Source: Firmicutes bacterium ZOR0006
GTDB lineage: Bacteria > Bacillota_I > Bacilli_A > Culicoidibacterales > ZOR0006
NCBI GenBank assembly: GCA_000798955.1
Contig: JTLC01000091.1
Coordinates: 25,956 to 63,201 of the forward strand
DNA length: 37,246 nucleotides
Reading direction: 5' to 3'
Shown here: piece by piece, positions 3,299 through 6,318 of the stretch
Layout: each line of letters starts with the position of its first letter
Numbering within the stretch: position 1 is the first letter of the stretch
The notes under the pieces: generated by a model
The model's input: only the letters and a program-made list of their open reading frames with translations
Told to the model about the DNA's origin: nothing
Database searches by the model: none
Made by a program: the position numbers and the translations under genes

Positions 3299-4621
3299 TT
3301 AAATGACTTGTTCGATTGGATCAGCTTCATGAACTTGCGGCTCACCTTGGCCAAGTTCTTTTTCTGGTAAAATCTGGTGTAATACAATCCCAACAATTGC
3401 TGCTAAAGCCATTCCACTTAAATTCACAGCACCAACACTTAAGACTGCACCACCAAGACCAATGACAAGGATAATCGCAATAATAACCATGTTGCGTTGT
3501 GCTAATAAGTTAATACGATTATTTACCAATACACGGACTCCATTTAATCCGATTAAACCAAAGAGTAAAATTGAAATCCCACCCATCACTGGTGATGGAA
3601 TTGTGGCAATTAACGCTGAAATTTTCCCAATAAATGCTAAGGCGATTGCAAAAATTGCAGCCAAAGCAATTACCCAAATACTTGCAACACGTGTCATCGA
3701 AATAACACCAGTATTTTCCGCATATGTCGTATTCACTGGACCACCAAGAATCCCGGCAACAAATGTCGCTAAACCATCACCAAGTAACGTACGGTGTAGT
3801 CCCGGTGATTTCAATAAATCACGATTCACGATGCTTCCGAGCACAACATGATCACCGATATGCTCTGCAACAGTAACAATTGTCACAGGAATCACAAGCC
3901 AGAACACCTCTAAGCTAAAAGCAGGTTGATAATGAATAAACGGAATATTGACTTCTGGTAAGGCAAACCATGATGCTTCTAGAACTGGCGTGAAGTCAAC
4001 GATTCCCATAACAACTGCAAAAATATAACCAACAATTAAACCAACAAGAATCGGAATTAATTTAAAGTATCCTTTGGCATAAACTGAAACAATGACTGTT
4101 GTCAGTAATGTCACTGTTGCAACAAGTACAGATGTCATATCATAGACACCATCAACGTACATTGCATTATTCACAGCAACAGATGATAATCCTAGCCCGA
4201 TAACCATAATAACTGGACCAATAACAACCGGTGGTAAAATTTTGTTTAACCATCCTGTACCAGCTACGCGCATAATTGCCGCTAGAATGAGGTAGACCAT
4301 TCCGACCATCATTACTCCAAGGCCAGCATTTGCCAATCCTGCACCATTCTCAAGAGCAATTGCTGCTTGTAATGGAGCAATATACGCAAATGACGAACCA
4401 AGGTAAACTGGTGATTTTGCTTTCGTTGCCACCATATAAATGAGTGTTCCAATCCCACTACATAATAAACCAACACTAATTGGTAAGCCAACTAAAATTG
4501 GTACTAATACCGTCGCCCCAAACATAGCAAAGACGTGTTGAAAACTTAAAAGTAACCATTGAATTTTATTTGCTGGTTGCTGATGCACATCCAAATATAA
4601 GTTGTTTGCTTTCTTTGTCAT
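3299..4621 (-). CDS. uraA: Uracil permease (NCS2 family)
   Basis: The 440-residue protein is a UraA/PyrP-type uracil:proton symporter of the cytoplasmic membrane. It opens with the family pattern around QWLLLSFQHVFAMFGATVLVP, has about 12-14 hydrophobic segments, and contains the substrate-site helices near TVAEHIGDHVVLG and NTTYAENTGVISMTRVAS (residues roughly 250-330), with conserved Glu residues in AEH and YAEN. An upstream in-frame ATG would add 20 residues but lies in the leader terminator. The chosen ATG has AAAAGGAGAATAATT before it. It follows a leader-peptide attenuator, consistent with pyrimidine control. It imports uracil for salvage by uracil phosphoribosyltransferase, whose gene is not in this window. 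Confidence 0.95.
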   Translation of the reverse strand: MTKKANNLYLDVHQQPANKIQWLLLSFQHVFAMFGATVLVPILVGLPISVGLLCSGIGTLIYMVATKAKSPVYLGSSFAYIAPLQAAIALENGAGLANAGLGVMMVGMVYLILAAIMRVAGTGWLNKILPPVVIGPVIMVIGLGLSSVAVNNAMYVDGVYDMTSVLVATVTLLTTVIVSVYAKGYFKLIPILVGLIVGYIFAVVMGIVDFTPVLEASWFALPEVNIPFIHYQPAFSLEVFWLVIPVTIVTVAEHIGDHVVLGSIVNRDLLKSPGLHRTLLGDGLATFVAGILGGPVNTTYAENTGVISMTRVASIWVIALAAIFAIALAFIGKISALIATIPSPVMGGISILLFGLIGLNGVRVLVNNRINLLAQRNMVIIAIILVIGLGGAVLSVGAVNLSGMALAAIVGIVLHQILPEKELGQGEPQVHEADPIEQVI

Positions 4622-4651: not shown

Positions 4652-4686
4652 CAAAAAAAAATACGAAAGCCAAAAGGCCATCGTAT
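4652..4686 (-). terminator. Leader terminator (attenuator) of the uracil permease gene
   Basis: ATACGA-tg-GCC / GGC-tt-TCGTAT with a TTTT loop is followed by nine T residues on the minus strand, upstream of the permease ribosome site. The 5' arm directly follows the stop codon of a short leader ORF, and the same ATACGA can instead pair with TCGTA just before it. This is the layout of a transcription attenuator. Confidence 0.85.
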
Positions 4687-4751
4687 CAATACGAAAAAGT
4701 GAATGAAGAAAAATATTTTCCCGTTCCGACTTGCGTTGTTACTCGTTTCAT
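4686..4751 (-). CDS. Leader peptide of the uracil permease attenuator (21 aa)
   Basis: A 21-codon ORF begins at an ATG preceded by AAGGGAG at 9-nt spacing and lies about 28 nt from the likely transcription start. It reads MKRVTTQVGTGK then YFSSFTFSY and stops at TGA, one base before the 5' arm of the leader terminator. The second half is encoded by U-rich codons (UAU UUU UCU UCA UUC ACU UUU UCG UAU). There is no run of one amino acid of the kind used in amino-acid attenuators. A perfect 11-bp inverted repeat links the start region (TGAAGAAAAAT) with the U-rich part (ATTTTTCTTCA). The arrangement resembles enterobacterial pyrBI, where a ribosome closely following a UTP-starved polymerase prevents the terminator from forming. 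Translation is inferred. Confidence 0.6.
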   Translation of the reverse strand: MKRVTTQVGTGKYFSSFTFSY

Positions 4752-4785
4752 TTTTCTTCACTCCCTTCAAACTCTCTAATTCAAA

Positions 4786-4814
4786 ACAATAATTCATTTC
4801 CAATCAAAAGTCAA
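4786..4814 (-). promoter_or_regulatory. Promoter of the uracil permease leader
   Basis: TTGACT and TATTGT are separated by 17 bp on the minus strand, immediately after the guanine permease stop codon. The predicted start is about 28 nt before the leader-peptide ATG. Confidence 0.55.
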
Positions 4815-4818
4815 TATT

Positions 4819-6114
4819 TTATAGTAAGAAATTTAAGATAAAGACAAAGAAGAGACCGATCATAATTGGGTTTACTTCTTTAATACGCTTAGAGAATGCC
4901 ATCAATAACACATATGCCATAAATCCAAAAGCAATACCTTGTGCAATTGACGCTGTTAAGATCATCATAATAATTGTAAAGAAAGCTGCAAACGCTGTTG
5001 GTTGATCAATCCAGTCAATTTCTTTTACTGACTCTGCCATTAATCCGCCGACAATAATTAACGCTGGCGCTGTAACCGCACTTGTAAAAATTACTAAGAT
5101 TGGTGAGAAGAATAACGCTACTAAGAATAATGTCGCTGTTGTTGCCGCTGTTAAACCTGTACGTCCACCTTGTTCAACACCCGTCATTGATTCTACATAT
5201 GACGTCACTGATGACGTACCTAGTACAGCACCAATTGTTGTTGATAAAGCATCTGAAACCATTGCTTTGCTACCATTTTTAATTTGGCCGTCTTTTGTCA
5301 TCAATCCCGCACGGCTCGCAACTGCCATTAATGTTCCAGCAGTATCAAAGAAATCAACAAATAGAAACGCAAAGATAACTAATAAGAATTCTGGTTTGAG
5401 AATTTCGCTAAATCCCGCAAAAACTTGTCCAAATGTTGGTGCAATTGATGGTGGCATCGAAACAATCATTGTTGGCATTTCTGATAAACCAAAGACTAAA
5501 CCGACAATTGCTGTAATAACCATTCCGACAAAAATTGCAAACCGTTGCTTCAACATCATTAATAAGAGGGTAATTACTAGTCCAAAAAGTGCTAATAATA
5601 CTTGTGGATTACTGATATCACCAAAGGCTACTAGCGTATCGGCATTTCCTACAACAATCCCGGCATTTTTTAATCCAATGAAAGCAATGAAGAAACCAAT
5701 TCCCACACCAACAGCAATTTTTAACGAATGCGGAATAGCAGTGATAATTTTTTCGCGAATCCCTGAGAATGATAAAATTAAAAATAAAATACCTGAACAG
5801 AAAATTCCAGCTAAAGCAGCTTGCCAGCTATATCCCATTCCTAAAACTACCGAGAAGGCAAAGAACGCGTTCATTCCCATACCTGGTGCTTGTGCAATTG
5901 GTAAATTTGCCACAAATGCCATAATATATGTCCCAATTGCTGCTGACAAACACGTTGCAACAAAGACAGCACCACTATCCATTCCTGCATTTCCTAAAAT
6001 TAGTGGGTTAACTGCTAAAATGTACGCCATTGCTAAGAATGTTGTTACTCCCGCAACTAACTCCGTTCGTACATTTGTCTTGTTGGCTTGCAAGCCGAAA
6101 ATTTTCTCTAACAT
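4819..6114 (-). CDS. pbuG: Guanine/hypoxanthine permease (AzgA-type NCS2)
   Basis: The ~431-residue membrane protein belongs to the AzgA-like branch of NCS2 transporters (PbuG/PbuO in Bacillus). Recognisable parts are the N-terminal NVRTELVAGVTTFLAMAYILAVNP, the AQAPGMGMNAFFAFSVV segment, the FLFVDFFDTAGTLMAVASRAG segment, and GTSSVTSYVESMTGVEQGGRTGLTA. These are hallmark sites of purine-specific members. A GTG one codon upstream is also possible; GGAGGAATAAC precedes both. A guanine riboswitch with terminator lies directly upstream, which supports guanine or hypoxanthine as substrate. The gene imports purine bases for salvage. Confidence 0.95.
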   Translation of the reverse strand: MLEKIFGLQANKTNVRTELVAGVTTFLAMAYILAVNPLILGNAGMDSGAVFVATCLSAAIGTYIMAFVANLPIAQAPGMGMNAFFAFSVVLGMGYSWQAALAGIFCSGILFLILSFSGIREKIITAIPHSLKIAVGVGIGFFIAFIGLKNAGIVVGNADTLVAFGDISNPQVLLALFGLVITLLLMMLKQRFAIFVGMVITAIVGLVFGLSEMPTMIVSMPPSIAPTFGQVFAGFSEILKPEFLLVIFAFLFVDFFDTAGTLMAVASRAGLMTKDGQIKNGSKAMVSDALSTTIGAVLGTSSVTSYVESMTGVEQGGRTGLTAATTATLFLVALFFSPILVIFTSAVTAPALIIVGGLMAESVKEIDWIDQPTAFAAFFTIIMMILTASIAQGIAFGFMAYVLLMAFSKRIKEVNPIMIGLFFVFILNFLL

Positions 6115-6141
6115 CACGTTATTCCTCCAAAATTTTTTCGT

Positions 6142-6173: not shown

Positions 6174-6228
6174 ACGAAGAACAGTGACTATTTTCATCGA
6201 CACAAAAAGTGCGTGTTTAAACAGTACT

Positions 6229-6300
6229 CACTTCGTAGTCGGCCTATTTAAGGTTAGCCGGTAGAAACTTCTGGACCATATTACCAGTTTTATACGAAAT
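6229..6300 (-). promoter_or_regulatory. Purine (guanine-class) riboswitch aptamer
   Basis: The minus strand shows the purine aptamer: P1 TTCGTAT.../...CTACGAAG, then AATATGGTCCAGAAG, the invariant GTTTCTACCGGC, then AACCTTAAATAGGCCGACTACG. Hairpins P2 and P3 carry the usual loop-loop partners. The specificity base in the GAC of GACTACG is C, as in guanine riboswitches (U in adenine ones). Ligand binding should favour the downstream terminator and switch the permease off. Confidence 0.95.
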
Positions 6301-6318
6301 ATTATTTATTACGTTCCT

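Follow-up and report, generated by a model that had tools for sequence, protein, structure and literature searches.

Attenuation of pyrimidine genes

Attenuation that senses UTP through the coupling of ribosome and RNA polymerase is known from Escherichia coli and its kin, and Bacillota are described as controlling their pyr genes through PyrR. The PyrR-dependent pyr attenuators of Bacillota (RF00515) exert their control through a leader terminator, and they include the gene class that concerns us here, pyrP/uraA. Two accounts of E. coli pyrBI state that proximity of the ribosome prevents termination (PMC4824070; PMC5021804, citing Roland 1988); one of them describes the terminator as prevented by tight coupling over the leader (PMC5021804), and the other describes it as working at normal UTP (PMC4824070). 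Within Bacillota, leader ORFs whose translation controls an intrinsic terminator have been described for hisS/hisZ in bacilli and for vmlR, where they sense amino-acid supply or stalled ribosomes via regulatory codons or alternative RNA structures (PMC2965389; PMC9226507). A search of the open-access literature, with subscription papers outside its scope, found no report of a pyrBI-like device in Bacillota.

The window, a 37,246-nucleotide stretch of the Firmicutes bacterium ZOR0006 genome, contains a minus-strand leader (4652-4814) flanked by the genes for a purine permease and a uracil permease. Like the pyrBI leader (pyrL), it has a putatively translated ORF with a good Shine-Dalgarno (SD) sequence, and it presents a hairpin, a U-rich stretch and an intrinsic terminator in the same order before a pyrimidine gene. 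It differs in its Bacillota host, in having a transporter gene in place of pyrBI, in its length of 21 rather than 44 codons, and in a stop codon that lies at the start of the terminator, whereas that of pyrBI lies beyond it; no sequence homology was seen between the two, and a strong hairpin predicted to close the ribosome-binding site (RBS) is present in the window's genus. Unlike the RF00515 attenuators, the leader has neither a PyrR loop nor an accompanying pyrR gene, and a translated ORF would replace the binding loop. In contrast to the hisS/hisZ and vmlR leaders, it lacks both a run of regulatory codons and a conserved antiterminator. We consider it probable (about 0.77) that this leader attenuates transcription in the manner of E. 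coli pyrBI, sensing UTP through ribosome coupling, and that it controls uracil uptake in a Bacillota lineage that has lost PyrR. What would be new is the recurrence of a pyrBI-like design in Gram-positive relatives that lost PyrR, and it is unusual that the controlled gene serves uptake, not synthesis.

Anatomy of the uracil permease leader

The anatomy proposed in the preliminary description, namely a promoter, a 21-codon ORF with its own ribosome site, and a terminator, was located in full. The promoter (4786-4814; like all window features below, on the minus strand) starts 5 nt beyond the stop codon of the purine permease and comprises a -35 element TTGACT (4814-4809), a 17-nt spacer and a -10 element TATTGT (4791-4786), with 9 of 12 matches. 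It is followed by a strong SD, AAGGGAGTGA (4758-4767), and by the leader ORF, MKRVTTQVGTGKYFSSFTFSY*, which runs for 21 codons from ATG to TGA (4686-4751) in a design that is conserved in relatives. The second half of the ORF (4689-4718) is U-rich and is the proposed region of UTP-dependent RNA polymerase pausing. The intrinsic terminator (4653-4686), ATACGAtGGCC-TTTT-GGCtTTCGTAT then T8, has a predicted energy of -13.9 kcal/mol and comprises a 5' arm (4686-4676), a loop (4675-4672), a 3' arm (4671-4661) and a U tract (4660-4653). The stop codon had been described as adjoining this 5' arm, and indeed the last base of the UGA is the first base of the arm. As a matter of geometry only, a ribosome completing the leader would overlap the terminator hairpin; relative to the called start of the 5' arm, the end of the stop codon lies at +2 in the window and at -3 in its congener.

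The pyrimidine gene is preceded by an SD-bearing ORF and then by an intrinsic terminator. When the window leader is shuffled with its dinucleotides preserved, 2% of the shuffles contain an SD-ORF of 15 codons or more that ends at the terminator, and no other terminator-like site with a U-rich ORF ending there was found in about 126 kb of the genome (both strands counted).

Family and structure matches agree with the earlier naming of the gene behind the leader (3299-4621) as a uracil permease, and place it in the NCS2 family, UraA/PyrP type. Its best match is the NCBIfam uracil permease PRK10720, at 423 bits and under the 477 cut-off, and its nearest solved structures are those of UraA (PDB 3qe7, E 2.8e-100). 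The upstream gene (4819-6117) encodes an NCS2 family (purine) permease and sits behind a purine riboswitch (6216-6317; RF00167, 82 bits). No terminator was seen between this riboswitch-controlled gene and the attenuator (window 4819-4686); transcription that reads through from the purine side may therefore cross the putative UTP attenuator as well.

Absence of PyrR

No PyrR-binding loop had been noticed in the leader at first inspection, and searches of both leader and genome concur. An Rfam-type search that detected positive controls elsewhere found no PyrR-binding site in the window leader, and no PyrR RNA (RF00515) was found in the window's genome. This genome, estimated to be 100% complete, has no pyrR gene above the cut-off; the best match in the search is a phosphoribosyltransferase at 32 bits against a cut-off of 138 bits. 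On these grounds control of the leader by PyrR was rejected.

The window's order, Culicoidibacterales, is small and is represented in the analysis by four genomes that include one congener (G001/L001). A further member, G003, carries a pyrR gene; its orthologous permease, at locus L092, shares the synteny and is preceded by a PyrR site that matches RF00515 with 45.7 bits, below gathering. This points to a swap of regulators within one order. Across the wider sample, pyrR was found in 1 of 32 leader-bearing genomes versus 13 of 14 comparison genomes, the latter having been chosen partly for PyrR-type leaders and the lone pyrR-less one being 55% complete. Fisher's test, run with 1/31, gives p 2.6e-9, a value to be taken as several lineages agreeing, because the relatives are not independent. 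The single genome that carries both a translated U-rich leader and pyrR, G305 (L050, L156), might reflect either mixing in the assembly or a state of transition.

Recurrence of the leader design

Comparison of the leader in related genomes, which the preliminary description had proposed as a check, reveals that the ATG, SD, open frame, U-rich end and stop/terminator contact are kept while the sequence drifts. The congener's permease is 87% identical to that of the window, and its leader has diverged such that the BLAST alignment is limited to the 37-nt terminator region. It nevertheless keeps the promoter spacing, with TTGACA-17-TAAAAT in the same place as the window promoter, an SD (AGAGGTGA), and an ORF, MDVTTGTAVFFISMFFI* (L001 2877-2930), in which U6 occurs twice and whose UGA lies 3 nt from the terminator. 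The same leader design is found in three more genomes of the window's class (G045, G107 and G137).

A search of public genomes for relatives of the permease showed this layout in several uncultured clostridia that lack PyrR motifs. Overall, 30 of 36 terminator-bearing permease leaders feature an SD-ORF stopping in or at the terminator, versus 0.86 expected from shuffles. Because the loci outside the clostridial family were picked by eye, the unselected sample of that family provides the cleaner figure, with 19 of 24 terminator-bearing leaders versus about 0.6 expected. Leader ORF lengths range from 17 to 43 codons across the relatives, most of which are metagenome assemblies that are not mutually independent. 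Judged by its layout, the same design recurs in unrelated Bacillota lineages without pyrR. If the pyrBI-type reading holds, the combination of an SD-ORF, a U-rich end and a stop codon in the terminator offers an annotation signature for uracil-salvage leaders that match no Rfam family.

Features conserved within the leader ORF

The U-richness noted in the second half of the window ORF extends to every leader compared. The U fraction averages 0.245 in the first half and 0.52 in the second, which is the richer in 30/30 leaders (p 1.7e-6). The rise occurs at the first (0.16 to 0.43), second (0.29 to 0.55) and third (0.29 to 0.58) codon positions, and C stays near 0.10. Since U increases at all three positions with C flat, these data indicate that U itself is under selection. 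Between close leader pairs, pS is 0.205 and pN 0.210; this near-equality implies that the peptide sequence is unconstrained, and selection on the leader peptide was ruled out on this basis. The elements that are kept are the frame, the position of the stop codon and the U content, but not the peptide. This pattern matches a UTP-dependent pause read by a ribosome, and would not be expected if the leader encoded a membrane or arrest peptide or served as an amino-acid attenuator.

Hairpins over the leader

The short competing hairpin of the preliminary description, TCGTA-TTGA-TACGA, exists in the window (4694-4681) but is absent from the congener, and hence is probably not essential; as a conserved antiterminator it was rejected. 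A much stronger hairpin, described here as P1 (4695-4768), had gone unnoticed. In P1, the SD and start codon (4768-4749) are predicted to pair with the U-rich half of the ORF (4715-4695), followed by UUUUUCG, and a run of U5 or U6 lies directly 3' of the hairpin in both species of the genus. Its energy falls below that of shuffles with z of about -2.2 to -2.7 in the window and -5.0 to -7.6 in the congener; against shuffles that preserve the two halves, z is -2.2 and -5.0, respectively. When folding is modeled on the growing transcript, the predicted unpaired fraction of the SD is about 0.85 at first and drops to 0.06 or less after synthesis of the U-rich half. P1 may act as a pause hairpin, as an RBS gate, or in both ways. 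Pairing within the leader ORF exceeds that given by composition across the wider set (25/30 negative, p 4e-7). RBS closing was rejected as a general feature, being strong in the window's genus alone; elsewhere RBS pairing is barely above what U-rich composition gives (p 0.05).

Proposed mechanism

From this arrangement we infer that the ORF is translated, that polymerase pauses in a UTP-dependent manner, and that the ribosome blocks the terminator. With ample UTP, polymerase would cross the U-rich half fast and outrun the ribosome; the terminator would then fold, leaving the permease gene untranscribed. At low UTP, polymerase would stall in the U-rich stretch, allowing the ribosome on the 21-codon ORF to close the gap. 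When polymerase resumes, a ribosome at or near the UGA would cover the 5' arm of the terminator, and transcription would proceed into the permease gene. Runaway transcription has been reported for Bacillota such as B. subtilis (PMC7858274, citing Johnson 2020); in such organisms, coupling over a short leader would have to come from the pause. P1 stands directly before the U run, the position expected of a pause hairpin, and probably sharpens the switch in this genus, as the ribosome site would stay accessible no longer than it takes to make the U-rich half.

A tentative extension, possible but more doubtful than the pyrBI-type reading itself, assigns P1 a gating role. P1 would shut the leader ribosome site after synthesis of the U-rich half, such that leader translation and readthrough occur only when low UTP slows polymerase, and PyrR-free attenuators of this kind would have taken the place of PyrR on several occasions within Bacillota. 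This proposal assumes organisms whose polymerase normally outruns ribosomes. If the pyrBI-type reading is true, several Bacillota that lack PyrR re-establish coupling at a single gene through UTP-dependent pausing, and the leader provides a compact, directly testable case of regulation under runaway transcription.

Alternative explanations

Several points count against the pyrBI-type reading: the pyrB operon of the same genus, which is the site of the device in E. coli, has no attenuator, and the clostridial pyrB leaders likewise lack one; transcription in Bacillota such as B. subtilis runs away from translation; most of the relatives are metagenome assemblies that are not independent; and G305 has pyrR besides its leader. 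Other readings of the leader must also be weighed. Were P1 the site of a ligand or protein, as in a new riboswitch or a PyrR substitute, the ORF would be incidental; both species of the genus indeed have a strong P1 (z -2.2 to -7.6), which hides the SD. However, no Rfam family fits the leader, the sequence of P1 is not conserved between the two species, RBS pairing outside the genus hardly exceeds U-rich composition, and the ORF design recurs without P1 being alike, which together render a binding leader unlikely. An attenuator that responds to amino acids or to general translation status, where the leader is rearranged independently of UTP by ribosomes that stall at Phe, Ser or Tyr codons or by poor translation, gains some plausibility from the small alternative hairpin over the terminator arm in the window, and from the fact that U-rich codons necessarily encode Phe, Ser, Tyr, Leu and Ile. 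Yet that hairpin is absent from the congener, there is no conserved mutually exclusive antiterminator, the leaders share neither an amino acid nor a codon run, third codon positions are also enriched in U, and pN about equals pS. Sensing amino acids would, moreover, make little sense for uracil uptake, and we regard this explanation as distinctly unlikely.

The U-rich stretch could instead be a pause motif for NusG or a loading site for Rho, rather than a sensor of UTP. Bacillota NusG pauses at TTNTTT (PMC9226507), and a 2026 study connects the bias of genes towards purines with escape from Rho termination where transcription is runaway (PMC13323073). The motif is nonetheless not enriched (47 observed versus 50.6 expected from composition), so it was rejected as the basis of the U-rich half, and the U-rich half of the window leader contains no copy of it. 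The C content shows no rise, and every counted case has an intrinsic terminator; control by either factor appears very unlikely. Finally, several clostridial leader peptides are hydrophobic in their second half, which might suit a genuine gene for a small membrane peptide with a shared promoter and its own terminator, the permease being expressed by readthrough. The near-equality of pN and pS speaks against this, as do the spread of lengths from 17 to 43 codons (the window peptide has merely 21 residues) and the enrichment of U at codon positions 1 and 3 besides 2, and we find such a gene scarcely credible.

Related pyrimidine loci

Judged by the order and sequence of its ORFs, the pyr operon of the window's genome reads pyrB, pyrC, carA, carB, pyrK, pyrD, pyrF, and a family search confirmed pyrB; pyrE comes next in the congener's operon. 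No attenuator was found at the pyrB operon of the window's genus, nor one of the present kind in clostridial pyrB leaders. The pyrB promoters of both genus species share a nearly identical stretch, TATCATAGCGAAAGTATAAAAAAYG, which features neither a terminator nor a PyrR site and lies in the genome's own pyrB leader (L088, minus strand, just upstream of 9001) and at about 6230-6283 of L090.

In some uncultured clostridia, the uracil permease carries a fused C-terminal uracil phosphoribosyltransferase, as at L162:1486-3507 (NCBIfam upp, 289 bits versus a 208-bit cut-off). Similarly long open frames of 660-690 aa occur at L158, L159, L161, L166, L177 and L180. Such a fusion places import and UMP formation on one chain, and in this part of the clostridia ties the controlled gene to UMP/UTP supply. 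A skipping-rope RNA was also detected near a uracil permease locus (L171:277-372; RF02924, 45.5 bits).
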